Assembly (NCBI RefSeq): GCF_900168205.1
Contig: NZ_FUZE01000002.1
Coordinates: forward strand, 352,154-416,153
DNA length: 64,000 bases
DNA from: Chryseobacterium balustinum
GTDB taxonomy: Bacteria > Bacteroidota > Bacteroidia > Flavobacteriales > Weeksellaceae
Reading direction: 5' to 3'
Positions 26,203 through 47,241 of this stretch are shown piece after piece (the stretch's first letter is position 1; each line of letters opens with the position of its first letter). The translations under genes were made by a program, and so were the position numbers. The notes beneath the pieces were generated by a model. It did no database searches. It worked only from the letters and a program-made list of their open reading frames with translations, and was not told where the DNA came from.

Positions 26203-26386
26203 GGTGATGTAATTTTAGTTATTAAATGATATACAGAAGACAATAAATGTTTCAATTTGGTTACAGCCTTTTTATAAAAAACTTATATTACATTTCTTTA
26301 AACGGCTTATAACAAAGATATAAACCTTCTAATTTTATTTCACAAAATAAAGATAAAAATACAAAATATTATTTTCCAAATAAAAA

Positions 26387-26412
26387 AATCCTTCCCGAAT
26401 TTGGAAAGGATT
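26387..26412 (-). terminator. Intrinsic terminator closing the Y RNA array
   Basis: On the minus strand AATCCTTTCC pairs with GGGAAGGATT, followed by TTTTT. It begins 18 bases after the last Y RNA-like unit and defines the 3' end of the array. Confidence 0.85.
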
Positions 26413-26430
26413 TGAATGATTCATTAAAAT

Positions 26431-26568
26431 AATAAAAGGTAAAAATCAAGAAAAGAATGCGGGGCATGTCAAGCCGGAGTCGAACCGGATAGCCTTGCCG
26501 GAGTTACCAACTTCGCTATTCCTCCCCATGAGTGAGACGAAGTATCTTTTCTCTACGACACTTTTATT
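26431..26568 (-). ncRNA. Y RNA-like unit VII (D arm before T arm)
   Basis: The ends pair AATAAAAG with CTTTTATT. The internal loop has TGTCGTAG opposite TGATTTTTAC. The inner helix is AGAAAAGA with TCTTTTCT. The tRNA-like part here is in normal tRNA order: a GGGG/CCCC stem, a D-arm-like part with AGTTGGTAA, then a T arm CCGG-TTCGACT-CCGG. There is no anticodon arm. In this unit the acceptor-like stem, not the anticodon stem, joins the Ro-binding stem, unlike units I, III and VI. It is the last unit before the terminator. Confidence 0.7.
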
Positions 26569-26573
26569 TTTTT

Positions 26574-26723
26574 AAACAAGGCAACAGTCAAAAAGTGTGT
26601 CGTGCTCTAACCAACTGAGCTACTCTCCCAATAGAAATTGTGTTTTATTGGTGGAAGAGACGGGACTCGAACCCGCGTCCCCGTCGTGATAATCGAAGTA
26701 ACACTATTCTACGGCACTTGTTT
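26574..26723 (-). ncRNA. Y RNA-like unit VI (full YrlA topology)
   Basis: Ends pair AAACAAG with CTTGTTT. Conserved TGCCGTAG faces TTGCC. Inner pairing is AGTGT with ACACT. The tRNA mimic runs T arm (GCGGG-TTCGAGT-CCCGT), acceptor 3' strand CTCTTCC, a 23-base closing loop, acceptor 5' strand GGGAGAG, then D arm GCTC-AGTTGGTTA-GAGC. The acceptor pairs over 7 bp with one G-T. ACCA follows the acceptor, but CCAAT also pairs with ATTGG in the loop, so an encoded CCA end is probably coincidence. Confidence 0.82.
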
Positions 26724-26739
26724 TTATTTTTCAAATTAA

Positions 26740-26847
26740 AAAGAGGCGAAAGGCGAGAAAACCACGAATAAGTCTTAACACTTATTTTCTGGATTTGAAC
26801 CAATATCATAAGATTTACCGAAGTAAGTTTTCTTTACGGCACTCTTT
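26740..26847 (-). ncRNA. Y RNA-like unit V (T arm and acceptor hairpin, no D arm)
   Basis: Ends pair AAAGAG with CTCTTT. Conserved TGCCGTAA faces CGCC. The inner helix is AGAAAAC with GTTTTCT (7 bp). The T arm is TTGG-TTCAAAT-CCAG. The acceptor is a perfect 7-bp hairpin, AATAAGT/ACTTATT, closed by GTTAAG. No D arm is present. Confidence 0.75.
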
Positions 26848-26863
26848 ATTTAAACTGAATTTA

Positions 26864-26963
26864 AAAGAGGTAACTCATTGAAACACTTCCCAATCTTTTT
26901 CAAGATCGTTTGGACTCGAACCAAAATTACACCAAGAAGTAAGTCTTTTCTACGACACTCTTT
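26864..26963 (-). ncRNA. Y RNA-like unit IV (T arm and acceptor hairpin, no D arm)
   Basis: Ends pair AAAGAG with CTCTTT. Conserved TGTCGTAG faces TTACC. Inner pairing is ACTTC with GAAGT. The T arm is TTTGG-TTCGAGT-CCAAA. The acceptor is CGATCTT/AAGATTG closed by a GAAA loop. The D arm is missing, so this is a compact half-mimic like unit V. Confidence 0.75.
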
Positions 26964-26969
26964 ATTTTT

Positions 26970-27112
26970 AAATCAAGGTAAAAATTAAGAATCTTTCAGT
27001 GCTTTTGCTCTACCGACTGAGCTACTCTTCCGTTTTTAAGGAAAAGGCAGGATTCGAACCCGCGACCCAAAGATTAAATATCTAAGTATGATTCTAAAAC
27101 GACACTTGATTT
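26970..27112 (-). ncRNA. Y RNA-like unit III (full YrlA topology)
   Basis: Ends pair AAATCAAG with CTTGATTT (8 bp, perfect). Conserved TGTCGTTT faces TTTTTACC. The inner helix is AGAATC with GATTCT. The T arm is GCGGG-TTCGAAT-CCTGC. The acceptor CTTTTCC pairs with GGAAGAG over 7 bp across the closing loop TTAAAAAC. The D arm is GCTC-AGTCGGTA-GAGC. Best-formed member of the array, with T arm first and D arm second. Confidence 0.85.
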
Positions 27113-27124
27113 TTTTATATTTTT

Positions 27125-27203
27125 AAAACCGAGCAATTTTTAAAAAGAGTTTTAAATTCAATGTAAAGTCGAAGGAACTCTTTTTTACGGCATCAGTTGT
27201 TTT
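27125..27203 (-). ncRNA. Y RNA-like unit II (degenerate, no tRNA mimic)
   Basis: Keeps the conserved TGCCGTAA and a 10-bp inner helix (AAAAAGAGTT with AACTCTTTTT). The apex is a 24-base loop with only a trace of a T loop (CTTCGACT). The outer pairing AAAAC/GGTTTT is weak. It reads as a minimal or decaying unit of only 79 bases. Confidence 0.55.
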
Positions 27204-27338
27204 AAAGTAAGGTAAAAATCAAACAGAGACTTACCGACAGAGCGATACCAATTACGCCATCTCGGATTTCCAAGAACAGGAGTCGAACCTGTATTGCTGT
27301 CCCCAAACGAAGAAATTCTGTTTTACGACACTTACTTT
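27204..27338 (-). ncRNA. Y RNA-like unit I (full YrlA topology)
   Basis: Ends pair AAAGTAAG with CTTACTTT (8 bp). Conserved TGTCGTAA faces TTTTTACC. The T arm is ACAGG-TTCGACT-CCTGT. Acceptor strand TCTTGG pairs with CCGAGA across a 4-base AAAT loop. The D arm is GCG-T-AATTGGTAT-CGC. Directly after it an anticodon-stem equivalent, CTGTC/GACAG (5 bp), joins the mimic to the Ro-type stem. First unit after the candidate array promoter. Confidence 0.83.
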
Positions 27339-27362: not shown

Positions 27363-27370
27363 CAAAATTA
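27363..27370 (-). promoter_or_regulatory. Candidate -7 box for the Y RNA array
   Basis: TAATTTTG on the minus strand matches TAnnTTTG. Transcription would start near 27356, about 18 bases before unit I. No clear -33 element, so the array might also be reached by read-through from the TROVE operon. Confidence 0.5.
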
Positions 27371-27668: not shown

Positions 27669-28358
27669 TTATTTAAAAAGCATTTCATTAAAATTCGGTA
27701 TAACTTCTTTAGCCATAATTAAAACTTGTTGATTTTTTTCTCGAATATAATTCTGTTCTAATATATCTGTTAAGAAGTTATGTAAATCATTAGTGATTTT
27801 GAAAAACTCAATAATCATTTCTCCAGTTTTATCTCCATCAAATTGAATTATTGTGTTGTAGTATAAATCTACATCATCGCTAATATGACCACTAATATTA
27901 TTTCTAATAATTTTCATATCAGCTTCGTATTTATACTCTTTTTTAAAAACTTTTATTGAATTATTAATATTTACAAAATTTTCTTTAAGATGCGGAAGTG
28001 CATTTTCTGAAAGTTCATTTAAGAATTTTCCATATTTACTAAATGTTTTAAAAATTTCAAAAACAGTTAAATATACATTTTTTTTTACATAAATTTTCTC
28101 CCAGTTATTTGAAGCATTATAAAGCATTTTGCTCGACACCGCTAAATCAAGATTAGCTATTGCAAACAATGAACTGACATCATTAATTTTCCTCACTAAA
28201 TCAAAACCATTCAAGCATATATCAATATCATTCTTATCAAAATGTGTTTTTACATAATCAATTATTTTATTTACTTTCTGTGCTGTATCTAATAAACCTG
28301 TAAAAACAGCAACTGTAGAATCTGCAGAATTATTAAAACTTTTATTCATTGTTTTCAT
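27669..28358 (-). CDS. Helical protein between Ro60 and Y RNAs, possible HEPN
   Basis: 229 residues, nearly all helical, soluble, no signal peptide. I do not recognise the family. One segment, MKIIRNNISGHISDDVDLYYN (about 148-168), contains R-x5-H in a hydrophobic helix context, the pattern of HEPN nucleases and HEPN-type nucleotidyltransferase partners (R-x4-6-H). The rest (KVNKIIDYVKTHFDKND, NFLTDILEQNYIREKNQQ) fits a helical bundle. It sits directly between the TROVE gene and the Y RNA array on the same strand, so a role in handling these RNAs is likely. HEPN assignment is an inference from one motif. Confidence 0.6.
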   Translation of the reverse strand: MKTMNKSFNNSADSTVAVFTGLLDTAQKVNKIIDYVKTHFDKNDIDICLNGFDLVRKINDVSSLFAIANLDLAVSSKMLYNASNNWEKIYVKKNVYLTVFEIFKTFSKYGKFLNELSENALPHLKENFVNINNSIKVFKKEYKYEADMKIIRNNISGHISDDVDLYYNTIIQFDGDKTGEMIIEFFKITNDLHNFLTDILEQNYIREKNQQVLIMAKEVIPNFNEMLFK

Positions 28359-31873: not shown

Positions 31874-32422
31874 CTACACTTTTTTCAAACACCAAAATAG
31901 AATCTTGGCAATATTCTTCACATCGTCAATTCCTCTGTGATGTGTGCCCACTAAAGGAAATTTCAATTCTTTCAAAGCCCTATCCATTCCTACGCTTTTT
32001 CGAATCGGATGCAATTGAGCGAATAACGTTTTAACATTAATGTGGTCATCACTCAAAGGATAATCGACATTGAATCTTCTTGCCTGATTTTGAAGCATAT
32101 TCAAATCATAGTTTCCGTAGCTTGCCCAAGTCAAGTCTTCAGAATTGTATTCTACTCTCAGAATATCCAGAGCATCTTCCAGAAAAATCCCTTCATCATC
32201 AAGCATTTGTTGAGTAATAGAAGTCAGTTCCGTACAAAACGGACTCACTTTTGAGTATTGAGGTTTAATTAAAATCCCCTCATTTTGTGAAATCTTACCG
32301 GTTTTTGCATCCATAATACAAACTCCGATTTCTATAATTTCACTTTCCTGTCCTCTTGGCGGTCGGTCATTCCAACACGTGGCTTCGAGGTCTATAATTA
32401 ATATATTGTCTGTTGTTTTCAT
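31874..32422 (-). CDS. Eri1/KapD-like DEDDh 3'-5' exonuclease A
   Basis: 182 residues. DEDDh catalytic set: IDLEATCW (Asp11, Glu13), YGNYDLNML (third Asp), and HHRGIDDVKN (His and fourth Asp). TSITQQM is the conserved Exo II-adjacent motif. The closest known families are Eri1/3'hExo and bacterial KapD, which trim 3' ends of structured RNA, so RNA is the likely substrate. It is one of three paralogues at the locus (also 32537 and 34778), which share the start MKTT..ILIIDLEATCW or a close variant. All catalytic residues are present. Confidence 0.9.
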   Translation of the reverse strand: MKTTDNILIIDLEATCWNDRPPRGQESEIIEIGVCIMDAKTGKISQNEGILIKPQYSKVSPFCTELTSITQQMLDDEGIFLEDALDILRVEYNSEDLTWASYGNYDLNMLQNQARRFNVDYPLSDDHINVKTLFAQLHPIRKSVGMDRALKELKFPLVGTHHRGIDDVKNIAKILFWCLKKV

Positions 32423-32442
32423 TTGTTTAAAAAAATTAATAT

Positions 32443-32526
32443 TTGTAGCTGGAAGTCTGAAGCTGGAGGCTGGAAGTCAATTTCGCACCGCAAAAACTTC
32501 CCACTTCCTTCATCCATCTTCCTGAC
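32443..32526. repeat. Degraded inverted repeat (AGCTGGAAG type)
   Basis: Left side AGCTGGAAGTCTGAAGCTGG, right side ACTTCCCACTTCCTTCATCC. It matches in style the element at 36153-36237 and forms an imperfect hairpin between two exonuclease genes. Confidence 0.55.
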
Positions 32527-32536
32527 CAAATTATTA

Positions 32537-33079
32537 CTACAAAATTTCTCTTAAAATTTTGGCAGCGTTGTAAGCATCGTCTGCTCCGCTGTGATGATTT
32601 CCTTCAAAATCCATATTCATATATTTCAGGGCTCTTTTTAAACCCATCATTTTATGAAGTCCGATATGATTTTTGAATTGATACATCACATTAATATAAT
32701 TTTCTGAGAAAGGATTTTCGATTCCGAGATAATCACACTGTTCCATGATTTGTTCTTTATCAAAATTCCCAAAGCCTGCCCAAGTAAGCGAAGTTGAATG
32801 ATATTCTTTTTTGATTTTCTCACAGGCTTCCTCAAAATAAATTCCTTTTTCTTCGATTAATTGTGGTGTTATTCCGGTGAGTTCTGTACAAAATTTATTG
32901 ATTTTAGACCTTTCAGGAATTACATAGATGCTTTGTTTCCTGGAAATTGCTTTTGTTGTTCTGTTTAATTCGCAAATTCCGATTTCTATGATATCAACTT
33001 TTTGTCCAGCTGGGATTCTATCGTTTTCCCAGCATGTGGCTTCCAAATCGATGATTAATATTTCATTGGTTGTTTTCAT
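32537..33079 (-). CDS. Eri1/KapD-like DEDDh 3'-5' exonuclease B
   Basis: 180 residues, paralogue of the neighbouring exonuclease A. Catalytic residues: IDLEATCWEND (Asp11, Glu13), GFGNFDKEQI, and HHSGADDAYN. TELTGITPQLI and the KMMGLKRALKYMNM segment fit the Eri1 family. No extra nucleic-acid-binding domain (SAP or zinc) is attached, so target choice may depend on partners such as the TROVE protein. It is separated from paralogue A by a 114-base repeat-bearing gap. Confidence 0.9.
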   Translation of the reverse strand: MKTTNEILIIDLEATCWENDRIPAGQKVDIIEIGICELNRTTKAISRKQSIYVIPERSKINKFCTELTGITPQLIEEKGIYFEEACEKIKKEYHSTSLTWAGFGNFDKEQIMEQCDYLGIENPFSENYINVMYQFKNHIGLHKMMGLKRALKYMNMDFEGNHHSGADDAYNAAKILREIL

Positions 33080-33266
33080 TTTACTATTTTATTACATATT
33101 TTTTCATTCATCTGCATTTGGTTTTCATTGGAGGAGAGGTGGGAAGAAATACCCTAAAGAAGAATTGATGTTGCTGCTAAAGCTCTGCAAAGATAAAACC
33201 ATCAGTACGCATTCTATTTACGCAGTAAAAAATAATTTCAAAAAAAACTCCCCGAAGGGAGCTATT

Positions 33267-33830
33267 TTAATTTCTTGGTGCAAAAGGCGGTGTCCATTTC
33301 TTTTTCTTCATCAATTCTTTGATTTCTTCATAAGAAACAGGATAAAAATTATGGCAATCAACACCTACATCAATACTTAAAGCATTTTCATCATCCGATA
33401 ATGTTCCGTGTGAATGACCGTATAATTGCCATGTTCCGTGATGAGAACCGTTCCAGGTGCGCATTGCGTAATGAAAAAGCATGATCTTCTGTTTGCCCAT
33501 TTTATGACTTTCGTCTTCCACATAAAGCTCGTGGTAATCTTTGATCCATTCGAACCTTTCCGGAACCCGAAGCGCAGAATATTCATGATTGCCTTTTATC
33601 AGATGGATTTTTCCATTTAGTCTGTCTAAAATTTCTTTTGTAAAATCTGGTTTTCCTAAACTTACATCGCCCAAGTGATAGACAGTATCATCTTTTCCTA
33701 TTTTTTCGTTCCATCGTTTGATAAGTTGCTCATTCATTTCCTCCGTCGACTCAAAAGGCCGTTCGGAAAATTTTATAATATTGGCATGACCGAAATGATG
33801 GTCTGCCGTAAAAAATATATTTGTTTGCAT
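33267..33830 (-). CDS. Calcineurin-like metallophosphoesterase
   Basis: 187 residues with the complete metallophosphoesterase signature: ADHHFGHANI (D-x-H), HLGDVSLG (GD), KGNHE (GNHE), and LYGHSHGTL (GH-x-H). Substrates in this family range from nucleotides to nucleic acid ends. Beside cREC and the exonucleases, a 2',3'-cyclic or terminal phosphate on RNA is an attractive but unproven substrate. It lies 14 bases after the DinB-fold gene. Confidence 0.92.
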   Translation of the reverse strand: MQTNIFFTADHHFGHANIIKFSERPFESTEEMNEQLIKRWNEKIGKDDTVYHLGDVSLGKPDFTKEILDRLNGKIHLIKGNHEYSALRVPERFEWIKDYHELYVEDESHKMGKQKIMLFHYAMRTWNGSHHGTWQLYGHSHGTLSDDENALSIDVGVDCHNFYPVSYEEIKELMKKKKWTPPFAPRN

Positions 33831-33844
33831 TTTTTTTAATTTTT

Positions 33845-34402
33845 TTAATTGTTTTCTAATTCATTATTTTCCATCTGAGTAACGTTTCTCTGAGCGTGAA
33901 GTGAAAGGAAATAAATGTATTCATACACATTGATTTTTCCCAATCCATTCACGGTCATTGTTGTTTCACAGAGAAGACCTTCTCCATTTTTCATCAAGTC
34001 TAAATAGTTTAAGCATTGATGATATTGTTGAGAAATTAAACTACTGATTTTATTTAAATTCAATTCTCCTTTGGGCTCCATATGTTCTGGTCTTATCAAT
34101 TCAAACGCACCATACTCGCCTACTTTCTCAAATTTTTCTTTATCGAAACTGTAGTTTTCTATTTCAAAATTTAAATCAAGATTGCGATAATTTCGCATTG
34201 CTTTTTTTGAACCTTTATCAATAAGAATCAACAAGTAAAAGTTCGTCAAATAAATATGCTCTAAAATCTGTTGAACCGTCCAACCTCCATTTGAAGGTTG
34301 ATAATTCAAGGTTCTATTATCTTTATCAAACCATCTGTCAACCTCATCGAAACTGAGATTCAAATGCTTTCTTATATCTTGAATTAATCTAAAAATGTCC
34401 AT
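33845..34402 (-). CDS. DinB-fold four-helix protein
   Basis: 185 residues. DinB_2/YfiT-type features: FRLIQDIRKHLNLSFDEVDR, the WTVQQILEHIYLTNFYLL helix with a conserved His, and FLSLHAQRNVTQME with a second His/Gln pair near the C-terminus that can bind a metal. Members are thiol-dependent transferases or have unknown function. Its start codon overlaps the stop of the cREC gene by one base (TAATG), so translation is coupled. No RNA role can be read directly. Confidence 0.85.
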   Translation of the reverse strand: MDIFRLIQDIRKHLNLSFDEVDRWFDKDNRTLNYQPSNGGWTVQQILEHIYLTNFYLLILIDKGSKKAMRNYRNLDLNFEIENYSFDKEKFEKVGEYGAFELIRPEHMEPKGELNLNKISSLISQQYHQCLNYLDLMKNGEGLLCETTMTVNGLGKINVYEYIYFLSLHAQRNVTQMENNELENN

Positions 34403-34773
34403 TACAATTTTTTAAAGTTGTTTAAAAGTCCTTCAATATTTTCCTTTCCAACAGGATTCATGGAGTGGCAATAGAATTTTGGTAAGTCCAAATAGTTATC
34501 CATACAATATTCTACCAGCCATTTTGCACAATCATAGCCTGTTTTTTCAACAAACTCCTGAGAATTTGGTTCTAAATAATGTTCATCTGCAAGGTCATGG
34601 TCAAAAGAAATCATTTCCGGAAGTCCTTTTTCCAAAATTCTGTTGACAAACTGCTCATAATTTCGAACGATATACCAATCTTTTCTGAGAAAAATATCCT
34701 GTTTGGTATAATGATAGGCCTCAAACGGATATCTTATATCATCCAGAAATAGTAATCTTTTTGTTAACTCCAT
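34402..34773 (-). CDS. Cyclic-phosphate-processing receiver-like protein (cREC)
   Basis: 123 residues with a receiver-type fold: LLFLDDIRYP (paired Asp11-Asp12), MISFDHDLADEHY, and YCHSMNPVGKENI. This arrangement matches the cyclic-phosphate-processing receiver-domain family, proposed on comparative grounds to act on 2',3'-cyclic phosphates in RNA repair. It is not a response regulator: there is no output domain and no kinase nearby. Gene order, between an Eri1-like exonuclease and the DinB/phosphoesterase pair, agrees with RNA end processing. The activity itself is a published prediction, not something seen here. Confidence 0.8.
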   Translation of the reverse strand: MELTKRLLFLDDIRYPFEAYHYTKQDIFLRKDWYIVRNYEQFVNRILEKGLPEMISFDHDLADEHYLEPNSQEFVEKTGYDCAKWLVEYCMDNYLDLPKFYCHSMNPVGKENIEGLLNNFKKL

Positions 34774-34777
34774 TGCT

Positions 34778-35323
34778 TTAGTTTTTTAAAACTTGATACA
34801 ATAATTTTGCTGTGTTAAAAGCGTCATCTGCACCATTATGATTGCTCCCTTCAAATTCTATATTTCTTGTCTGAAGTTCTTTCAATAATCCAATTGGCTT
34901 TTCACCAGTCATTAAACTTATCAAAACCTTCAAATCAAGATACGTTTCACTAAAGGGAAATTTAATATCAAATTCTTGACATTGACTTTCCATAATTGAT
35001 TTGTCAAATCCACCATAACCGGCGTATGTTCTTCGTAATGAATTGTATCTGTTTTTGATATTTGAACAGGCTTCTTTAAAAGAAATCCCTTCTTTTTCTA
35101 GTTCTCCAGAAGTAATTCCTGTCAATTTTGTACAATATTCGCTTACTTCCGATCGTGTCGGTTTTATCAAATAGCTTCTTTTGTCTTCGATATTTCCGTC
35201 CGACATATTGAGTTTGCAAATTCCGATTTCAATGATTTCTCTTTTTTGATCTTCAGGAGTTTGCCCTTTTTCCCAACATGTAGCTTCGATATCTATGACA
35301 ATTACTTTGTCGTATAAAAACAT
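34778..35323 (-). CDS. Eri1/KapD-like DEDDh 3'-5' exonuclease C
   Basis: 181 residues, third exonuclease paralogue. Catalytic residues: IDIEATCWEKG (Asp11, Glu13), GYGGFDKSIM, and NHNGADDAFN; TKLTGITSGEL is the family motif. It differs from A and B mainly in the middle segment (FSETYLDLKVLISLMTGEKP). It is 4 bases upstream of the cREC gene and 13 bases after the ATP-grasp gene, so the three are one transcription unit. All residues needed for activity are present. Confidence 0.9.
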   Translation of the reverse strand: MFLYDKVIVIDIEATCWEKGQTPEDQKREIIEIGICKLNMSDGNIEDKRSYLIKPTRSEVSEYCTKLTGITSGELEKEGISFKEACSNIKNRYNSLRRTYAGYGGFDKSIMESQCQEFDIKFPFSETYLDLKVLISLMTGEKPIGLLKELQTRNIEFEGSNHNGADDAFNTAKLLYQVLKN

Positions 35324-35336
35324 TTTAATTTATTTT

Positions 35337-36113
35337 TTAATTGGAAAAGTAAATATTCAATGCTTTGATAATACTTTTCACGTTGGTGTTTGGATAAAAT
35401 CCGGAACTATTGATACAATTTATTTCAACAATTTTCCAGCCTTCATCTGTTAAACAAATATCCATTACAAAAGCTTCTTCAAGATTGAAAAGTTGGATCA
35501 TTTTATTGGCGAAATTTAATCCATCTTCTGACACGTTTTCTTCGAAAGGTGCATTATCATTAAATTTATAATATCCTGCATCGATAATCTGTCCGCCAAC
35601 GATCCAAAGTCTAGCTTCTTTTATTGTTAGTTTTGCTTCAGAAATCTGAACCAAAGAATCTTCTGTAATTCTGTTGGATCTATTTTTCAATGCTTCAAAA
35701 ACAAAATCTTTCCATTCTGTTTCACTGAAAACTTTTCCTGTGAAAATTTTAGCTTCATTGTAAGGTTTGATGAATTTAATTTCACCTTTTTTCCAAATCA
35801 ATTCTTCTGAAATTTTATGAACGGAAACTTTGTGATTCAAAAGGTTTTCACCATAAAATTTAGAATACACTTCATACAAATGATTGCCTCCGTAAAAAGA
35901 ACCGGGAAACCAATCGGTATTTTGTTTTGCCAATCTCGCGATCGTCACCGAACCGTAAACGAAAACATCTTTTCTGTCTGTTTCGAAGTCTATTTTTTCT
36001 GCTGTTGGAGGAATATTAATTACACTGTAATCAATATTCAATTCTTCCAAAGCATCAAAAATTTTATAATGATCGGGGTCTAAATACACATTAGCCTGAA
36101 CTAAAAAATACAT
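35337..36113 (-). CDS. ATP-grasp domain protein (R2K-type)
   Basis: 258 residues. A small N-terminal domain, then an ATP-grasp core: EARLWIVGGQIIDAGYYKF, and the metal-binding end MDICLTDEGWKIVEINCINS, where Asp, Glu and Asn align with ATP-grasp catalytic positions. It resembles the R2K clade found in conflict and RNA-repair neighbourhoods. The family joins carboxylate to amine or ligates similar groups; substrate unknown. It could modify a protein or an RNA end. It is co-transcribed with exonuclease C. Confidence 0.8.
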   Translation of the reverse strand: MYFLVQANVYLDPDHYKIFDALEELNIDYSVINIPPTAEKIDFETDRKDVFVYGSVTIARLAKQNTDWFPGSFYGGNHLYEVYSKFYGENLLNHKVSVHKISEELIWKKGEIKFIKPYNEAKIFTGKVFSETEWKDFVFEALKNRSNRITEDSLVQISEAKLTIKEARLWIVGGQIIDAGYYKFNDNAPFEENVSEDGLNFANKMIQLFNLEEAFVMDICLTDEGWKIVEINCINSSGFYPNTNVKSIIKALNIYFSN

Positions 36114-36152
36114 GGTTACTAGTTTTTAAAGGTTCTTTTATTTAATTTTTTT

Positions 36153-36237
36153 GATGGAAGTTAGAAGCGGGATGTGGGGAGTTAATATCATACTGTTAAA
36201 AAACTTCCAACTTCCTACATCTCGCTTCCAGCTTTTA
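36153..36237. repeat. Degraded inverted repeat (GAAGTTAGAAGCGGGA type)
   Basis: Left arm GGAAGTTAGAAGCGGGATG, right arm ACATCTCGCTTCCAGC, imperfectly complementary. Related to 32443-32526. It ends at the stop codon of the YkuK-like gene and could act as a terminator-like hairpin. Confidence 0.6.
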
Positions 36238-36723
36238 TTACACCATCATATCAGCACAATTTGAACTTGCAAATGCGTAAGGTTTTGCTTTAAATATATA
36301 ACCCATTCCCATAATGTACCCCATTGCATCTTTCAAAGCAACATTGGATTTAAAATCCGGGTCGGTGTTAATGTCTGCGTGTACCTCCATTTCCACATCA
36401 TATGTTTCCAGAATAGAGCAAATGGCGTAGGCGATTTCTACGGATTTGTTGACCTCGTTCAACATTCGCTCTTTGATACTGATATTCTGTATTTCTCTTT
36501 CTTTTCTGATAAAGGTAAACGCTCCTTTTCCCTCACGAATAAAGACCACTGCCGTAGCATAATTAATGGCGTCACCGTAAACGTGGGAGTCTGAACCCAC
36601 ACACACTTTCAGTCGATGTCCATTTGCCTGTTCGCGAATGATGGCTTCTTCTACCAATTGCGTGATAGAATGTTGGAAAAATTTTCCGGTCATGTTTTGC
36701 CATGTTTGTTGTTGCGTTTCCAT
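36238..36723 (-). CDS. YkuK-family (DUF458) RNase H-fold protein
   Basis: 161 residues. The N-terminal strand KVCVGSDSHVYGDAINYAT supplies the first Asp of an RNase H-like fold; later EVHADINTDPDFKSN and GYIMGMGYIFKAKPYA complete the pattern typical of B. subtilis YkuK relatives. The family is predicted to be a nuclease or a nucleic-acid-binding protein; catalysis has not been shown that I know of. It is the first protein gene after the tRNA-like cluster (108 bases), on the same strand, and may be transcribed from it. Confidence 0.82.
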   Translation of the reverse strand: METQQQTWQNMTGKFFQHSITQLVEEAIIREQANGHRLKVCVGSDSHVYGDAINYATAVVFIREGKGAFTFIRKEREIQNISIKERMLNEVNKSVEIAYAICSILETYDVEMEVHADINTDPDFKSNVALKDAMGYIMGMGYIFKAKPYAFASSNCADMMV

Positions 36724-36830
36724 TTTTTCTACATGTTTAAGTTTTATATTTTTTATAATTCATAAATGATTTTTACTTGCGGTTATTTTTCTAATTTCTA
36801 ATCTCTAGTTTCTAATTTCTATTTTTCTGT

Positions 36831-36902
36831 TGATTCATCAGGACTCGAACCTGAACAACAAGAGTCAAAGTCTTGTGTGCTGACCAATTACACTATGAAT
36901 CA
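36831..36902 (-). tRNA. tRNA-Gln (anticodon TTG)
   Basis: 72 bases: acceptor TGATTCA/TGAATCA (7 bp), D arm GTGT-AATTGGTCA-GCAC, anticodon stem CAAGA/TCTTG with loop CTTTGAC, T arm CAGG-TTCGAGT-CCTG. The cloverleaf is complete. No CCA is encoded. Last gene of the cluster. Confidence 0.85.
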
Positions 36903-36976
36903 GTTTTAATTATAATTGATAAATAATAAGCGATAAATGATATTTTTCCACTGTAAATTCATCATTTATCTTTCTG

Positions 36977-37050
36977 TGGAGCAGACAGGAATCGAACCTA
37001 TACCTTTAGTTTTTCAGACTAACCTGCAGACCTGCCCCACCACTCTTCCA
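36977..37050 (-). tRNA. tRNA-Phe-like (anticodon GAA)
   Basis: Anticodon stem TTAGT/ACTAA and loop CTGAAAA give GAA. T arm TAGG-TTCGATT-CCTG. The acceptor (TGGAAGA/TGCTCCA) has two mismatches and the D arm is replaced by a GCAGG/TCTGC-like stem, so it is remodelled. Charging is uncertain. Confidence 0.65.
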
Positions 37051-37138
37051 GGTTTATGAATGATAATTGATAAGTTATAAATGGTACCATTGCTACTTTT
37101 ATCATTTATTATTGATGATTTATCAATTATGCTTTTGT

Positions 37139-37211
37139 ACGGAAAGAGGGAGTCGAACCCTCAATATCTTGAGCCTAAATCAAGTGTGTCTGCCAGTTCC
37201 ACCATTCCCGC
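37139..37211 (-). tRNA. tRNA-Leu-like (anticodon TAG) without the long variable arm
   Basis: Acceptor GCGGGAA/TTTCCGT (7 bp, two G-T). Leu-type D arm (GTGGAACTGGCAGACAC). Anticodon stem CTTGA/TCAAG, loop TTTAGGC. T arm GAGGG-TTCGACT-CCCTC. Bacterial tRNA-Leu has a long variable arm; here only about 5 bases remain. Confidence 0.72.
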
Positions 37212-37313
37212 AAGTTTTTATGAGTAATGTGTAATTAATAATATAAATTCATACTTAATAATTTATGATGGCAATAATTACTCATTGCACATTACTAATT
37301 ATTTATATTTTGT

Positions 37314-37385
37314 ACTCTATAAGGGAATCGAACCCTTGTTTTCTGCTCGAAAGGCAGGCGTCCTGAACCGTTAGACGAATAGAGC
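37314..37385 (-). tRNA. tRNA-Glu (anticodon TTC)
   Basis: 72 bases: acceptor GCTCTAT/ATAGAGT, D arm GTCT-AACGGTTCA-GGAC typical of tRNA-Glu, anticodon stem CCTGC/GCAG with loop CTTTCGA, T arm AAGGG-TTCGATT-CCCTT. The innermost anticodon pair is C-A, a mild defect. Confidence 0.82.
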
Positions 37386-37474
37386 ATTTTTCTTGTGAAT
37401 GGTGAATCGTCAATTTACTTTGCAGTCAAATTTTTAAAATTGACAATTGACTTATTCATTATTCCCTTTTTTTG

Positions 37475-37546
37475 ACCACTAACCAGGAGTCGAACCTGAA
37501 CAACAAGAGTATATTTCCTGCATGCTGCCATTACATTATCAGCGGT
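37475..37546 (-). tRNA. tRNA-Gln-derived gene with altered anticodon loop
   Basis: The 3' half copies the tRNA-Gln at 36831 (TCTTGTTGTTCAGG-TTCGACT-CCTG). Acceptor ACCGCTG/TAGTGGT has 7 bp with two wobbles. The anticodon stem CAGGA/TCTTG is kept by compensating changes, but the loop is AATATAC: position 33 is A, not T, and the triplet would read TAT. Probably non-decoding or a decoy. Confidence 0.6.
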
Positions 37547-37552
37547 ATTTGT

Positions 37553-37635
37553 GGAAGTAGTAGAATTTGAACCTACTCAGCAATGAAGCAACAGATTTAC
37601 AGTCTGCCCCGACTCTCCAACTTCGGCGTACTTCC
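37553..37635 (-). tRNA. tRNA-Tyr (anticodon GTA)
   Basis: 83-base class II tRNA: acceptor GGAAGTA/TACTTCC, D arm CCGA-AGTTGGAGAG-TCGG, anticodon stem GCAGA/TCTGT with loop CTGTAAA, a long variable arm, T arm GTAGG-TTCAAAT-TCTAC. Well formed. Confidence 0.88.
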
Positions 37636-37731
37636 AAATTTTGATAAATGTTAATTGATAAGAGATAAATGATTTCCATCTTCATTCTAACTTCTAATTT
37701 CTAACATCTAATTTCTCTTTTGAAGAAAAAC

Positions 37732-37787
37732 AAAGCCTGTCATTATTTTTTTGTTTGATATAAGAACTTCTACGCTCGACAGACTTT
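37732..37787 (-). ncRNA. Unknown conserved hairpin, copy a
   Basis: AAAGTCTGTC pairs with GACAGGCTTT (10 bp) around a loop containing GCGTAGAAGTTCTTATATC. Lies between the Cys-anticodon gene and tRNA-Tyr. Three copies share stem and loop. Confidence 0.75.
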
Positions 37788-37826
37788 TACTTTTTCTTCG
37801 GAACTAATCTCATTTTAGTTATTTGA

Positions 37827-37907
37827 GATGGTTATGGGATTCAAACCCACTCAGTTTTCACAACGGTTTTGCAGACCGCCCCGACTCTTCCACTTCGGCG
37901 AACCATC
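37827..37907 (-). tRNA. Class II tRNA-Tyr scaffold with Cys anticodon (GCA)
   Basis: 81 bases: acceptor GATGGTT/AACCATC, D arm CCGA-AGTGGAAGAG-TCGG as in the neighbouring tRNA-Tyr, anticodon stem CGGT/ACCG with loop CTGCAAA, long variable arm, T arm GTGGG-TTTGAAT-CCCAT. Normal tRNA-Cys is class I. The body looks like Tyr while the anticodon reads Cys codons. Confidence 0.8.
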
Positions 37908-37988
37908 GTTTTTTTTAAAACTAGTTGTTGGTTTCTAGTTGATAGTTTTTAGAAATATCAAGTTTCTAAATTCTAACTTCTAATTGAA

Positions 37989-38052
37989 AAATAAAGCCTG
38001 TCTTAATTTTTTGTTTGATATAAAAACTTCTGCGCTTTGACAAACTTTATTT
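37989..38052 (-). ncRNA. Unknown conserved hairpin, copy b
   Basis: AAATAAAGTTTGTC pairs with GACAGGCTTTATTT (14 bp). The loop has GCGCAGAAGTTTTTATATC as in copy a. C-G pairs of copy a appear here as T-G, so pairing is preserved. Confidence 0.75.
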
Positions 38053-38108
38053 TACCTAAAAATTTATATTATGTTTAAATTTCCATTTTTCTGTTTAATT
38101 GAGTTAAG

Positions 38109-38168
38109 AAAAAGCCTGTCTATATTGTGTTTTTGGCGTAAAGATCTTCTGCGCTTGACAAACCTTTT
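38109..38168 (-). ncRNA. Unknown conserved hairpin, copy c
   Basis: AAAAGGTTTGTC pairs with GACAGGCTTTTT. The loop has GCGCAGAAGATCTTTACG. The most divergent copy, just downstream of tRNA-Asn. Confidence 0.72.
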
Positions 38169-38205
38169 CTCTTCTCTTTGAAACAATTAATATTTAGTTA
38201 TTTGC

Positions 38206-38276
38206 GATTCCGGAAAGGCTCGAACTTTCAACTTCCGGTTTAACAGACCGGCGCTCTACCATTGAGCTACAGAATC
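38206..38276 (-). tRNA. tRNA-Asn (anticodon GTT)
   Basis: 71 bases: acceptor GATTCTG/CGGAATC, D arm GCTC-AATGGTA-GAGC, anticodon stem CCGGT/ACCGG with loop CTGTTAA, T arm GAAAG-TTCGAGC-CTTTC. Complete cloverleaf with a short D loop. Confidence 0.87.
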
Positions 38277-38423
38277 ATTTTTAATTTGCTAATGGTCAAT
38301 TATCAATCTGACATTGCTTGTCAATTTTAAAAATTCACTTGTGAAACAAAAGTGACAATTGACTATTCATTTTTTTCGTCTGGAAAGCAAGATTGTTCAT
38401 TGTTCCTTTTTTATTATTTTTTA

Positions 38424-38503
38424 AAGGCATTCACGAATGCTTCGCATTTCGAACTTGCGACCTCCCGCGTCCAAGACGGGGAAACAACCACCGTTATCCT
38501 TCC
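38424..38503 (-). tRNA. tRNA-Pro-like, degenerate (anticodon TGG)
   Basis: A good anticodon arm (CCCGT/GCGGG, loop CTTGGAC) and a Pro-type AGGTCGCAAGTTCGA T-arm start survive. The D arm is broken. The acceptor is reduced to AAGG/CCTT and a GCATTC/GAATGC hairpin is inserted after the T arm. Probably not chargeable. Boundaries are approximate. Confidence 0.5.
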
Positions 38504-38512
38504 AGTTTTGCA

Positions 38513-38569
38513 GATTCACTTCAAAAATCTTCTCCGAGAGACAGTCGGATCGGAAATTTTCTGTGAATC
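38513..38569 (-). ncRNA. 57-nt armless tRNA-like RNA with Asp anticodon loop (GTC)
   Basis: Perfect acceptor GATTCAC/GTGAATC, then an AAAAT/ATTTT helix, then a perfect anticodon arm TCCGA-CTGTCTC-TCGGA. D and T arms are absent. The anticodon arm is nearly the same as in the next gene, so it may derive from it. Confidence 0.65.
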
Positions 38570-38574
38570 GTTGC

Positions 38575-38644
38575 AGTCTATGCGAGAATCGAACTCGCGG
38601 TGTCCAAGAGACAGTCGGACAGGTTACCATTACCTCAATAGACC
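38575..38644 (-). tRNA. tRNA-Asp-like (anticodon GTC)
   Basis: 70 bases: acceptor GGTCTAT/ATAGACT, D arm AGGT-AATGGTA-ACCT, anticodon stem TCCGA/TTGGA with loop CTGTCTC, T arm GCGAG-TTCGATT-CTCGC. An alternative stem TGTCC/GGACA would give an 11-base loop. Confidence 0.7.
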
Positions 38645-38654
38645 ATTTTTTTGC

Positions 38655-38738
38655 GGAGAGCAAAGGAATCGAACCTTCACTACTGTCGTAGAACTCATTA
38701 GCAGTAAGCCGCAACAAACCAATATTTGCCTACTCTCC
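38655..38738 (-). tRNA. tRNA-Ser (anticodon GCT)
   Basis: 84-base class II tRNA: acceptor GGAGAGT/GCTCTCC, D stem GCAA/TTGC, anticodon stem GCTTA/TGAGT with loop CTGCTAA, variable arm CTAC-GACA-GTAG, T arm GAAGG-TTCGATT-CCTTT. Confidence 0.82.
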
Positions 38739-38744
38739 TTTTGT

Positions 38745-38817
38745 GACCTCGACAAGATTCGAACCTGTAACCCTCGTTTTAGAAAACCGATGCTCTAGCC
38801 AATTGAGCTACGAGATC
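38745..38817 (-). tRNA. tRNA-Arg (anticodon TCT)
   Basis: 73 bases: acceptor GATCTCG/CGAGGTC, D arm GCTC-AATTGGCTA-GAGC, anticodon loop TTTCTAA with one stem mismatch (TCGGT/AACGA), T arm ACAGG-TTCGAAT-CTTGT. Typical tRNA-Arg(TCT) body. Confidence 0.8.
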
Positions 38818-38822
38818 TTTGT

Positions 38823-38895
38823 AACCCCAGAAAGATTTGAACTTTCAACCCCCGGTTTAAAAGACCGGTGCTCTAACCATTTGAGCTATGAGATT
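38823..38895 (-). tRNA. tRNA-Lys (anticodon TTT)
   Basis: 73 bases: acceptor AATCTCA/TGGGGTT (two T-G wobbles), D arm GCTC-AAATGGTTA-GAGC, anticodon stem CCGGT/ACCGG with loop CTTTTAA, T arm GAAAG-TTCAAAT-CTTTC. Complete. Confidence 0.82.
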
Positions 38896-38903
38896 CTATT
38901 TGT

Positions 38904-38976
38904 AATCTCAGAAGGATTCGAACCTTCAACCTTCGGTGTCGTAAACCGACGCTCTATCCAATTGAGCCATGAGATT
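38904..38976 (-). tRNA. tRNA-Arg (anticodon ACG)
   Basis: 73 bases: perfect acceptor AATCTCA/TGAGATT, D arm GCTC-AATTGGATA-GAGC, anticodon stem TCGGT/ACCGA with loop TTACGAC, T arm GAAGG-TTCGAAT-CCTTC. Complete; A34 would be edited to inosine. Confidence 0.84.
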
Positions 38977-38996
38977 GTTTTTTTTAACTTTTATGT

Positions 38997-39057
38997 AATC
39001 CCAGAAGGACTCGAACCTTCAACCTTCGGCGTATCCAACCAATTGAGCTATGAGATT
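38997..39057 (-). pseudogene. Truncated tRNA-Arg-like gene without anticodon arm
   Basis: 61 bases sharing both ends with the 38904 gene (AATCTCATAGCTCAATTGG and GCCGAAGGTTGAAGG-TTCGAGT-CCTTC), but lacking the 3' side of the D stem and the 5' side of the anticodon stem. Either a deletion derivative or an anticodon-less tRNA-like RNA. Confidence 0.6.
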
Positions 39058-39066
39058 TTCACTTTG

Positions 39067-39138
39067 GGTATCTCCGGGGATCGAACCCTGTTCTCCGGTG
39101 CCACAAACCGACGCTTTACCAAATAAGCTAAAGAAACC
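39067..39138 (-). tRNA. tRNA-His-like (anticodon GTG)
   Basis: 72 bases: acceptor GGTTTCT/AGATACC (one mismatch), D arm AGCT-TATTTGGTA-AAGC, anticodon stem TCGGT/ACCGG with loop TTGTGGC, T arm CAGGG-TTCGATC-CCCGG. C73 is present, but position -1 is T rather than the G normal for tRNA-His. First gene of the cluster. Confidence 0.72.
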
Positions 39139-40230: not shown

Positions 40231-41247
40231 TCAATTTCTAAACATTTTATTTCTCCCTGTTCTGTATCTCGAAATATCTTTTAAAATCACCTCATCTTTT
40301 GGATTGAAATGCTTCAGTTCATTGATGATGGAAGAATGATTTTCTATATTTTCGGCAATGATCTCGTAAGCGATATTCCTTGTTGTTTCCTGTAGTTTTG
40401 AATCTTTTTTAAACTCATGTTTCATCGCTTCAAGATAAATTAATTTCTTATCAGAAGGAGTTTTGAGGTATAAATTTTGAATTGTATAATTTAGATTATC
40501 AACGTTATTGATATTTACGAAATAGTTATTCAGACAATTAAAAGCATCTTTATTTTCTTCCCAACCTTGTAATAAAATTTTCTGAGCTTCTTCCGGAACA
40601 TCCATTTTTTTGCGGTAGATAAGAGAAGCTTTCACCATTTGATCGTTGCTTACATAATCATCAACAACCATTTGGTAATAAGAATTCGCATTTTTGGTAT
40701 CATTAATTTGCATATAAAGATCACCCACTTTTTCTTTTTGCTCGAGCTCTTTATACAGTTCAATTGATTTTTGATATTGCTTTGCTTTTTCAAAACAAGA
40801 CGCAGCTTCCGATTTATTTTTTAATTTTTTAAGGTAAATCACGGCAGCTTCGTTGTACAAACCACCATCTTCAAGCGTTTTTGCACCACGGTAATTGTCA
40901 TTCAGCAAATTCATATACACTTTTGCGGCTCTTGTATAATCTTTTTCGGCAATGTATTTTTCGGCTAGTTCTTCGTACTTGTTTCTGATTCTGTCGAACA
41001 AAGAATTTTCAAGATAAAAATTTCCTCCACTACCTTTTCTTCCTGAAGAATTTCCAGATTTTTCTTTATTTTCAAGAGCGATGATTACAAAAAATATAAT
41101 TACTAAAACTACTATGAAAATCACCAGATTTCCAATAACGCTCCAAAATGTTTTCTGAAAAAGCTCAGCAAAAATCGCAATGATTTTAATAATTGCCAAA
41201 ACCACAAGTGCTCTCAGAAACTTATCGATAAACTTCTGCTTATTCAT
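40231..41247 (-). CDS. Membrane-anchored TPR-like protein of the MoxR-bpX operon
   Basis: 338 residues. Two N-terminal membrane helices (about 10-30 and 37-60), a Gly/Ser-rich linker (GNSSGRKGSGG), then helix-turn-helix solenoid repeats of TPR type: YIAEKDYTRAAKVYMNLLND, GLYNEAAVIYLKKLKNK, EAASCFEKAKQYQKSIELYK and so on to about 230. A more divergent helical end follows. It probably presents a protein-binding scaffold at the cytoplasmic face of the inner membrane. It overlaps the preceding gene by 8 bases, so translation is coupled. No enzyme motif. Confidence 0.8.
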   Translation of the reverse strand: MNKQKFIDKFLRALVVLAIIKIIAIFAELFQKTFWSVIGNLVIFIVVLVIIFFVIIALENKEKSGNSSGRKGSGGNFYLENSLFDRIRNKYEELAEKYIAEKDYTRAAKVYMNLLNDNYRGAKTLEDGGLYNEAAVIYLKKLKNKSEAASCFEKAKQYQKSIELYKELEQKEKVGDLYMQINDTKNANSYYQMVVDDYVSNDQMVKASLIYRKKMDVPEEAQKILLQGWEENKDAFNCLNNYFVNINNVDNLNYTIQNLYLKTPSDKKLIYLEAMKHEFKKDSKLQETTRNIAYEIIAENIENHSSIINELKHFNPKDEVILKDISRYRTGRNKMFRN

Positions 41248-42889
41248 TCTCTTCAGATTTTAAAATGGTTTTATCTTCGCGAAAAAGTCTGTACAAAAGA
41301 AGAGCTACACAAATAATCAATATCCAGACAAACCAGTTATAGCCAAACATTTCGATGATTGGATAAAAAATATAACTCAACAGAGCAATCAAAACAACCA
41401 TGAGGAAGATCTTGATTCCTATCGGAACATTTTCGCCACCGAAATGTATTTTTTTCTTTTTAAAAAGGAATGAGTACAATCCTACAGCTCCTGCCATTAA
41501 AACAATTAGCCAAAAAATATCTGATGCCGAAACTTTTTCAGAATCACTTGACTCGCCTTTATTCCCTTCAAGATAAGCCTGCGAATTTTCATCCATATTA
41601 GAAATTGGTGGCTCAATAGTTCCGTAGCGTTTCCCTAAAGAGTCAGCCATCAAAATCTGTTTTTTATTGAGAACCATTTTCACGACACCTTTATCGGCAG
41701 GAATTCCGTTTCCTTCTTTTTTGAGAGAATCTGTGATTTTATTTTGTAGTTTTTCGGTATTTTCTGTAATTACTTTTACTATTTTTTTATTGTAAATCGT
41801 TTTGAGAGAATCTTTTGTTTTTCCTTCATCAATTCTATATTTCTCAACATCTTTCACCACATCATCCATTGATTTTTCGTGAAATTCTTTCGTTGCTTCA
41901 TGAAAATCATTCATCAATTTCCCTCTTCGCTTTCTGTAAATAGAATCAATTTTTATATCAATATCAGTAATCCCAGATTTAAACGCCAAAATTTTTCCGA
42001 TCTTGTTTTGCTGTTGAACTTTCCCGGAATTCACATGTTCCTCGGTCTCATCCTTAGTCAACTGAAATCCTATTCTCGCAACGACAATTAAAATGATAAA
42101 AACAAAAAAGAGCCAGCGGTAATTCCCTGAACCTGAGTTTTCCTCTGAAGAATTATCACTTCCACTAAAAAAGTTTTGAAACCAAGTTCCAAATTTGAAT
42201 TTACCAAACCCATCTCCTCTGGAAGTTCCCATAATATCTAACGGAACTCCCAATTCTACAGCTCTTTCAGGATATTTTTCAATATATTTTAAATATTTTT
42301 CGATTTCCTTTTTATTTCCTGCCATTACTTTTTTCATATCAAAAGGCAGGTTTTTCATCCACTCTTCTTCAGTTTGCGGTTTTTGAAGCGCTTCCATCAC
42401 TTGGTCATCATCCATTTCCACCATAAAACTTTTAATTTCTTGGGAAATTGTTACTCCTTTTGATGGTTTTCGAATCTTATCTTCTGATTGTTTAGGATGA
42501 TTAATTAGTGAAATCCAATCAATTTCTTCATTCAATTTCACCAACCCGAAATCAGGATGCATCACCAGAAAATCAGCATTGATATTTTGCCAGTCTTCAG
42601 GATTGATTTTAGGATAAAAAGTGGTGTTTTCAGGAATAAAAAACCTGTCTTCAATACTTTGAAAATAAGAATTCTTGCCAATTTCAGAAGGAGCAAGGTT
42701 TTTAAAAATTAAAAAGCATCCATACAGAATATTGGGTTCGTTGGAAGGAATTGGAAATGACCGAACTTCATTTAAATCAATTCCTAAAGTTTCCATTTCG
42801 TGCAGCCACGTCAATGGTGAAGAACTTTTTATTAAAAGTCCTTTTTTAGGATAATTGTTTTTCGGAAAAGGTTTAATTCTCAGTTCCAT
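41240..42889 (-). CDS. bpX-type component with membrane helices
   Basis: 549 residues. Residues 1-160 form a beta-rich bpX-like domain (LLIKSSSPLTWLHEMETLG, ILYGCFLIFKN, DFLVMHPDFGLVKL). A helical linker follows, then one membrane helix near 258-275 (WLFFVFIILIVVARIGF). A Lys/Asp-rich predicted extracytoplasmic segment comes next, and three more membrane helices lie near the end. Together with MoxR and vWA genes this fits the MoxR-vWA-bpX ternary system; which bpX class it belongs to I cannot say. It overlaps the vWA gene by 17 bases. Confidence 0.7.
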   Translation of the reverse strand: MELRIKPFPKNNYPKKGLLIKSSSPLTWLHEMETLGIDLNEVRSFPIPSNEPNILYGCFLIFKNLAPSEIGKNSYFQSIEDRFFIPENTTFYPKINPEDWQNINADFLVMHPDFGLVKLNEEIDWISLINHPKQSEDKIRKPSKGVTISQEIKSFMVEMDDDQVMEALQKPQTEEEWMKNLPFDMKKVMAGNKKEIEKYLKYIEKYPERAVELGVPLDIMGTSRGDGFGKFKFGTWFQNFFSGSDNSSEENSGSGNYRWLFFVFIILIVVARIGFQLTKDETEEHVNSGKVQQQNKIGKILAFKSGITDIDIKIDSIYRKRRGKLMNDFHEATKEFHEKSMDDVVKDVEKYRIDEGKTKDSLKTIYNKKIVKVITENTEKLQNKITDSLKKEGNGIPADKGVVKMVLNKKQILMADSLGKRYGTIEPPISNMDENSQAYLEGNKGESSDSEKVSASDIFWLIVLMAGAVGLYSFLFKKKKIHFGGENVPIGIKIFLMVVLIALLSYIFYPIIEMFGYNWFVWILIICVALLLYRLFREDKTILKSEENE

Positions 42890-47115: not shown

Positions 47116-47241
47116 TTTTTAATTTAATTTTAAACGCAAAGAGCGCAATTTTTTTTTTTAATAGCTAACTGCTTTTAAGTTCGCGAAGGCGTTTGACTTC
47201 GTCGAATCTTCGATTTCACTTAACCAAGAAATACAAACAGT

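Follow-up and report, generated by a model that had tools for sequence, protein, structure and literature searches.

A tandem array of Y RNA-like units with one shared stem and diverse heads beside a Ro60 gene in Chryseobacterium balustinum

Introduction

What is the head of a bacterial Y RNA for? In the parts of the literature considered here, these RNAs are described singly or in pairs (YrlA, YrlB), each combining a stem that serves Ro60 with a head that resembles tRNA and whose purpose is unsettled. A locus of Chryseobacterium balustinum (RefSeq assembly GCF_900168205.1) raises the question anew, as seven Y RNA-like units stand there head to tail on the minus strand, from 27338 to 26431, 3' of a Ro60/TROVE gene. 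Positions are those of the window, a stretch of 64,000 nucleotides (nt) (contig NZ_FUZE01000002.1, positions 352,154 to 416,153) that forms the end of its 416,153-base contig in a genome of 4.86 Mb; the nearest named relatives of its Ro60 are from Chryseobacterium. An earlier note, made from the letters of the window alone, had described the units as an expanded set of YrlA-like tRNA mimics.

On comparative evidence, the units form one covarying RNA family tied to Ro60. One stem is held constant while about a dozen heads are distinct and ordered, an experiment of evolution's own on the role of the head, and since a different partner is expected for each head, the question is open to direct test. 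Our literature searches returned neither titles nor abstracts dealing with bacterial Y RNAs that are tandem or rRNA-like, and any claim of novelty is bounded by that coverage.

A shared, covarying stem

A Ro60 protein search of a collection of genome contigs yielded 301 relatives, the best 80 of which were kept as related loci. They belong mostly to Chryseobacterium, with Epilithonimonas, Flavobacterium and one Pedobacter. In 416 candidate units, the 3' box was picked by outer-arm pairing and the presence of CC only, leaving the facing base free. The facing bases of the UGYCGU box and of the RCC opposite it were C-G in 185 candidates, U-A in 180, U-G in 24, C-A in 1 and other combinations in 26. 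A control made of the opposite strand and of upstream DNA, which exceeded the test in bases, yielded 27 candidates, of which 4 were C-G or U-A. By these counts, the paired ends that the earlier note had seen in all seven units are borne out and exceed chance. The shared lower stem consists of an outer helix, a one-base bulge and then covarying G-C and Y-R pairs. The note had also placed an ACC or GCC opposite the UGYCGU; the RCC does covary across candidates, but unit II carries GCUC as its facing box, and an outer-stem A-U pair replaces the G-C pair of its class (read by eye).

Candidates with a standard Y-R pair and an arm score of at least 5 (377/416) clustered into about a dozen classes, named by letters (Table 1). 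Class alignments of the relatives' units were thinned by similarity and then hand-picked, leaving 34 of 69 units for class B, 33 of 76 for A, 28 of 36 for E, 32 of 48 for D and 31 of 61 for C, and RNAalifold was run on the thinned alignments. The proportion of alignment cells that paired was 99.0% in class B, that of unit VI (two-sided changes in 17/30 pairs), 98.8% in class D, that of unit I (17/34), 97.9% in class E, that of unit VII (16/29), and 97.3% in class A, that of unit III (10/28). None of 500 shuffles attained the covariation score of any of these four classes, and pairing fell to 34-55% when the partners were shifted by 1 to 3 columns. Thus the pairings hold in homologous loci, for 97-99% of predicted pairs in four classes, where their failure had been named as a refutation. 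Class C has weaker support, its energy being low although two-sided changes occur in 10 of 19 pairs. The D-arm helix says little in classes A and B, because it shows no two-sided change there; in class D, one D-arm pair has such changes, in 13 of 32 sequences. Folded as single sequences, the seven units of the window have unremarkable energies (z from -2.31 to +0.58). As these energies do not stand out, the case rests on comparison.

Linkage to Ro60 across genomes

The window and 78 of the 80 related loci carry units 3' of Ro60; in the two loci without units, the contigs end about 0.2 and 1.7 kb past Ro60. A strict detector counted a median of 5 units per locus (range, 1 to 9) and at least 3 units in 68 of 79 loci. 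It overlooks units with a changed box, such as unit II of the window, and stops at a length of 190 nt.

Across the family, TROVE matches occurred in 118 of 296 genomes, 109 with the orthologous type and nine with a divergent protein (33-43% identity). The pattern AAGTGYCGTAN{7,13}TACTTCG was present in 99 of the 296 genomes, and a reversed control pattern gave one match. All 99 genomes are among the 109 with orthologous Ro60 and none is among the other 187. Among the 150 matches listed, 148 lie on the same strand as Ro60, 354 to 4101 nt 3' of it, and the two exceptions come from one genome whose Ro60 contig ends there. The array, which the earlier note had called an unusual expansion, is therefore the rule beside this type of Ro60 (99/109 family genomes).

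A covariance model built from class B was used to search 296 genomes of the phylum. Of the 24 genomes with TROVE, 16 had matches of at least 60 bits, all of them full-length, and no such match occurred in the 272 others. A full-length match of 43.1 bits came from one genome without TROVE. At E <= 0.001, 165 of the 296 genomes had weaker matches, for the most part partial.

Head structures and classes

In classes A, B and D, RNAalifold predicted an outer helix, an inner helix, a T arm, an acceptor closed by a loop or linker, and a D arm. Units I, III and VI were thereby recovered in the YrlA order from their relatives, as had been read from the letters. The layout does not extend to the whole array, four of whose seven units (II, IV, V and VII) lack it, and we rejected a single YrlA layout for all. 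Nor does every unit carry a tRNA-mimic domain of the kind first described, as unit II has none, unit VII is not permuted, and units IV and V lack a D arm. The window thus contains four kinds of head, namely permuted (I, III, VI), T arm plus hairpin (IV, V), unpermuted (VII) and tRNA-unlike (II). In unit VI, a 7-bp acceptor is followed by ACCA, a long AT-rich linker joins the acceptor strands, and the D loop is long.

The classes follow one another in a common order, D-F-I-A-G-J-C-R-B-E, obeyed by 805 of 831 pairs of different classes, an order that was taken from the same data as were tested. Label shuffles gave 49.8%, with a maximum of 57.4%. The test covered 10 classes in 76 loci including the window and omitted classes H, K and L and single units. 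We rejected homogenized repeats as an account of the array, because distinct classes are held in one order.

One representative per class was compared with the D arms of the genome's tRNAs, using simple shuffles as a control. Classes B, A, D, J and K beat all 500 shuffles. The class B D arm resembles those of Met, His and Asn tRNAs, that of class A resembles Phe and then Lys and Gly, that of class J Trp and Glu, and that of class K the Leu type. Class D is also of the Leu type, its highest class mean being that for Gln, so unit I reads as a permuted tRNA mimic with a Leu/Gln-like D arm. Between the D-stem motifs lie 5 nt in most class A units (62/76) and 6 nt in most of class B (53/69). Class G units, present in 15 loci (e.g., L045:12978-13118), have no recognized T arm; on its own strand, the L045 unit had no Rfam match up to an E value of 1, and no match to the rRNA contig was found.

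A 23S rRNA-like head in relatives

Class R was sought separately because of the 190-nt limit of the strict detector. The unit measures about 205-210 nt and stands toward the array's end in 14 of the 80 loci, between classes C and B wherever both were detected; it is absent from the window. It carries a sense match to a stretch of 23S rRNA that we take to be helices H69-H71. In the L045 unit (L045:13392-13628), 33 of 33 nt are identical to the 23S rRNA of the window's own genome (E 1.2e-11); reversed class R sequences had no match to that 23S rRNA. A fifteenth locus, L059, has the rRNA match but no full unit.

Across 242 alignment columns, the 14 copies average 87% column identity. Pairing holds in 98.5% of cells, with two-sided changes in 11 of 63 pairs (reached by 1/500 shuffles) and a covariation score attained by 0/500; the count of further pair types was not above shuffles (234/500). 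Beyond the 33-nt match, class R shows no rRNA likeness above shuffles (135/500), and the bacterial large-subunit rRNA model misses the unit (7.7 bits, E 2.8). A core pattern of the class occurred in 17 of the 296 family genomes, all of the window's genus, with no match to the control. Such a head would carry Y RNA mimicry from tRNA to rRNA.

Comparison with known RNA families

Searched with Rfam at gathering cut-offs, neither the window nor seven other loci showed a Y RNA, and nothing at all was detected in the array. The YrlA covariance model, which the earlier note had named as a check, does match units III and VI (scores in Table 1), but no unit comes up to its gathering cut-off of 69. The same model scored 42.2 bits in L045, and seven further loci had no YrlA match at gathering. 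The Deinococcus Y RNA model, RF01053, gave unit VII 20.6 bits against a cut-off of 80. ARAGORN found no tRNA gene between 26380 and 27420, and the tRNA model scored 23.7 bits in the array, against a cut-off of 29. Other weak Rfam matches of the array (tRNA, transfer-messenger RNA [tmRNA], VrrA and further ones) were set aside, being under their cut-offs.

Transcription signals

In 42 of 79 loci, one of them the window, a TANNTTTG box, which we take to be the flavobacterial -7 consensus element, precedes the first detected unit by no more than 60 nt, and it stands before 10 of 298 inner units; the shuffle expectation is 1.7%. Its frequency differs with the class of the first unit (F, 22/24 loci; D, 16/31; A, 4/9; B, 0/11). 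In line with the one terminator of the earlier note, a terminator-like hairpin at 26413-26386 follows the last unit.

The Ro60 protein

The neighbor of the array had been read as a Ro60 homologue, and profile and predicted fold agree on this. Its product matches PF05731 with 85.9 bits and vWA_Ro60 with 24.5 bits, under the cut-off of 27.7 for the latter. The models predicted for the window protein and for a full-length relative each had 13 PDB matches at E <= 0.001, all of them Ro60/TROVE structures. D259, S261 and S263 (DxSxS) are invariant in 24 of 24 Ro60 sequences, as are the lysine-tyrosine at residues 89-90 and the histidine-proline at 106-107, in a region that presumably corresponds to the one binding Y RNA in Xenopus Ro60. 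The open reading frame (ORF) has at least 505 codons in 77 of 80 relatives and 436 in the window, where a clean in-frame gap of 249 bp (83 codons) near 29783 is seen relative to L034; the block is also present in L035. With these codons missing near the N terminus, the HEAT-repeat ring may be incomplete; the predicted model still matches Ro60 structures.

Genomic surroundings

The coordinates of the features of the window are collected in Table 1. Upstream of Ro60 lies an island with genes for three RNase_T proteins, a metallophosphoesterase, cREC, an R2K ATP-grasp protein and an RNaseH_like protein, 14 tRNA genes, and the MoxR-vWA-bpX genes. The island genes recur around part of the related loci. 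Ile-UAU is the only anticodon of the tRNA row without a second gene elsewhere in the genome, and the row looks like a spare, divergent second tRNA set beside Ro60. At least 3 tRNA genes occur within about 10 kb on either side of Ro60 in 22 of 80 related loci. Sister loci carry a Rnl2-type RNA ligase and Band_7 (L045), RtcB (L101), or RlaP and RtcB (L105). In the window's genome, RtcB genes are on other contigs, and the sole RNA_ligase-domain match is below cut-off. Passages of one study propose that cREC processes cyclic phosphates at RNA ends and that TROVE is an RNA-repair platform with a tRNA-like partner (PMC7824862).

Table 1. Location of the array units, predicted signals and neighboring genes in the window
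Feature	Position	Strand	Description
Unit I, class D	27204..27338	-	Ro60-type stem, inner helix, anticodon-stem equivalent, T arm, closed acceptor hairpin, D arm
Unit II, class F (assigned by eye)	27125..27199	-	Ro60-type stem and plain hairpin; no tRNA-like head
Unit III, class A	26970..27112	-	Permuted tRNA mimic (YrlA layout), short D loop; YrlA model 36.7 bits, E 3.6e-6
Unit IV, class C	26862..26965	-	T arm and hairpin; no D arm
Unit V, class C	26738..26849	-	T arm and hairpin; no D arm
Unit VI, class B	26573..26724	-	Permuted tRNA mimic; YrlA model 33.1 bits, E 4e-5
Unit VII, class E	26431..26568	-	Unpermuted head: two nested hairpin helices, then T arm
Predicted promoter -7 box TAATTTTG (TANNTTTG type)	27363..27370	-	32 nt before unit I
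Predicted intrinsic terminator	26386..26413	-	Terminator-like hairpin after last unit
Ro60/TROVE protein, 436 amino acids	28551..29861	-	PF05731 profile and predicted fold; 83-codon N-terminal block absent
ORF of 229 amino acids between Ro60 and array	27669..28358	-	No Pfam match; present in 2/80 related loci
Island genes: three RNase_T-family exonucleases, metallophosphoesterase, DinB_2, cREC, R2K ATP-grasp, RNaseH_like	31874..36723	-	
14 tRNA genes (ARAGORN)	36829..39138	-	13/14 anticodons encoded again elsewhere in genome by different sequences
MoxR-vWA-beta-propeller ternary system (bpX0-bpX4, bpMoxR)	41240-47883	-	Beyond the tRNA array
Flavo-1 RNA motif, RF01705	28383-28471	+	62.7 bits; just 3' of Ro60, opposite strand

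Possible functions of the array

By analogy with known Y RNAs, the array RNAs likely bind Ro60. Our preferred reading, held with modest confidence, is that the array likely equips Ro60 with interchangeable adaptors to enzymes that handle tRNA, serving RNA repair or clearance. The array would be transcribed as one RNA, starting at the predicted promoter (27370) and ending at the predicted terminator (26386), and later be cut into single RNAs, as suggested by the spacing of the units and by the promoter box, which stands before the first unit alone. For docking on Ro60, each RNA would use the stem and its single-base bulge, judging from the Y RNAs of vertebrates, Deinococcus and Salmonella. Passages of PMC4726728 place the vertebrate Ro60 site on a seven-bp helix with a bulged C and a three-nt bulge. 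The exposed head might attract or occupy enzymes that read tRNA, such as modification enzymes, PNPase, end-trimming exonucleases and ligases. According to the passages considered, YrlA is a substrate of the tRNA-modifying enzymes DusA and TruB (PMC8394870), and a Y RNA tethers PNPase to Ro60 in Deinococcus (PMC4726728, PMC8394870). The ribonucleoproteins could then serve the repair or clearance of damaged tRNA, a role suggested by the spare tRNAs and RNA-end-processing genes of the island and by the ligases of sister islands (Rnl2 type, RtcB). Varied heads, including the 23S rRNA-like head of relatives, would broaden the range of enzymes or RNAs served.

In a wider form, which we offer tentatively and regard as possible rather than probable, the Y RNA heads would be a library of structured-RNA mimics and Ro60 a programmable platform for RNA quality with exchangeable RNA adaptors. 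The library would comprise short-loop and long-loop generic tRNAs, Leu/Gln-like and Trp/Glu-like tRNAs, a T arm with hairpin and, in 14 of 80 loci, 23S H69-H71. Each head might recruit or occupy enzymes that modify, repair or cut the RNA that it imitates. Ro60, an autoantigen in lupus and Sjogren's syndrome, would then be tied more firmly to tRNA and rRNA repair.

Several observations weigh against the adaptor reading. Unit II and class G are without a tRNA-like head, so that tRNA handling cannot be the whole story, and the D arms of classes I and E are weakly tRNA-like, being matched by 26 and 11 of 500 shuffles, respectively. In 37 of 79 loci, among them all 11 that start with class B, no promoter box was seen ahead of the first unit. 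The linkage to TROVE is incomplete, as 8 of the 24 TROVE genomes in the phylum sample have no strong match to the class B model, and the nine family genomes with divergent TROVE are without the signature, since all 99 signature genomes fall within the 109. No RNA ligase was found among the 26 ORFs of the window that were scanned. Finally, the Ro60 of the window lacks 83 codons near its N terminus; the system of this genome may thus be impaired, or the assembly may be wrong.

The heads might alternatively be decoys that bait tRNA-cleaving nucleases or phage enzymes (in relatives, also rRNA-cleaving ones), with Ro60 only stabilizing the bait and each head protecting its own group of genuine RNAs. 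The classes differ in D-arm type and in the length of the D loop, as such a set would have it, and cREC, the MoxR-vWA-bpX genes and a spare tRNA set lie in the neighborhood. Toxins that cleave tRNA usually attack the anticodon loop, however, and the predicted head structures of classes A to E contain no anticodon arm. The evidence from Salmonella points both ways, for passages of PMC7790460 suggest the YrlA head as a possible inhibitor of an anticodon nuclease and also state that YrlA fragments were not detected when tRNAs were cut. We consider a decoy function unlikely. Still less credible to us is an effect of plain dosage, in which the units would be copies of an ordinary tether of PNPase to Ro60 whose heads drift since only the stem matters. 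It would account for the stem common to all units, and PNPase tethering is the Y RNA role described for Deinococcus in the passages considered (PMC4726728, PMC8394870). Drift of the heads is contradicted by their conservation class by class and in order: they show two-sided changes, keep one order across species and, in class R, reach 87% identity.

The permuted heads also invite another explanation, because T arm, acceptor and D arm likewise follow one another at the junction of neighboring tRNA genes. There is a tRNA array nearby, and of the eight matches of the class B model to the window's own genome (two of them unlisted), the three listed outside the array each span two tandem tRNA genes. 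These listed junction matches cover positions 40-132 or 47-132 of the 163 in the model, without the outer stem, whereas in the array the Ro60-type stem and both acceptor strands covary and ARAGORN finds no tRNA. We give debris of tandem tRNAs almost no credence and rejected it as the present-day state, as the outer stem covaries. The likeness suggests, without proving, that tandem tRNA junctions could have given rise to the permuted head.

Known systems

A close parallel to the array is the Salmonella rsr-yrlBA-rtcBA operon, whose YrlA and YrlB RNAs (RF02553 for YrlA) also lie beside a Ro60 (Rsr) gene and have a Ro60-type stem. As in units I, III and VI, the head of Salmonella YrlA is permuted (T arm, acceptor, D arm) and lacks a free CCA end, and RNA-repair genes stand at the same locus in both systems. 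The operon has two RNAs, whereas the array loci have a median of 5 detected units drawn from about a dozen ordered classes. The array loci also differ in their T-arm-plus-hairpin, unpermuted, headless and 23S-like units, and the units scored fall under the RF02553 gathering cut-off.

The Y RNA of Deinococcus radiodurans (RF01053) resembles unit VII in its T-arm-bearing head and its place beside Rsr. Unlike it, unit VII is below the RF01053 cut-off and is one unit of a diversified array. Phage RNA-repair clusters share TROVE, cREC, RNA ligases and tRNA genes with the loci studied here, but the passages considered describe no diversified tandem Y RNA array or rRNA-like head in them (PMC7824862).

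Circularly permuted tRNA genes and two-piece tmRNA resemble unit VI in having the 3' half first, an encoded CCA and a linker, and the permuted tmRNA model matches unit VI with an E value of 0.0015, below its cut-off. Unit VI differs from them in that a Ro60-type stem replaces the anticodon stem, and no role in translation is implied.

Other observations

The three RNase_T-family exonucleases of the window stand within one island, at 31874-35323 on the minus strand. The Flavo-1 motif recurs near Ro60 in L035, L072 and L101. In L168, a tRNA-like gene with an enlarged anticodon region (G000:C41:12700-12920; Rfam score of 49.6 bits over 108 nt), missed by ARAGORN, adjoins an RtcB-like gene (C41:12956-13729) and is possibly another tRNA-like partner in RNA repair.

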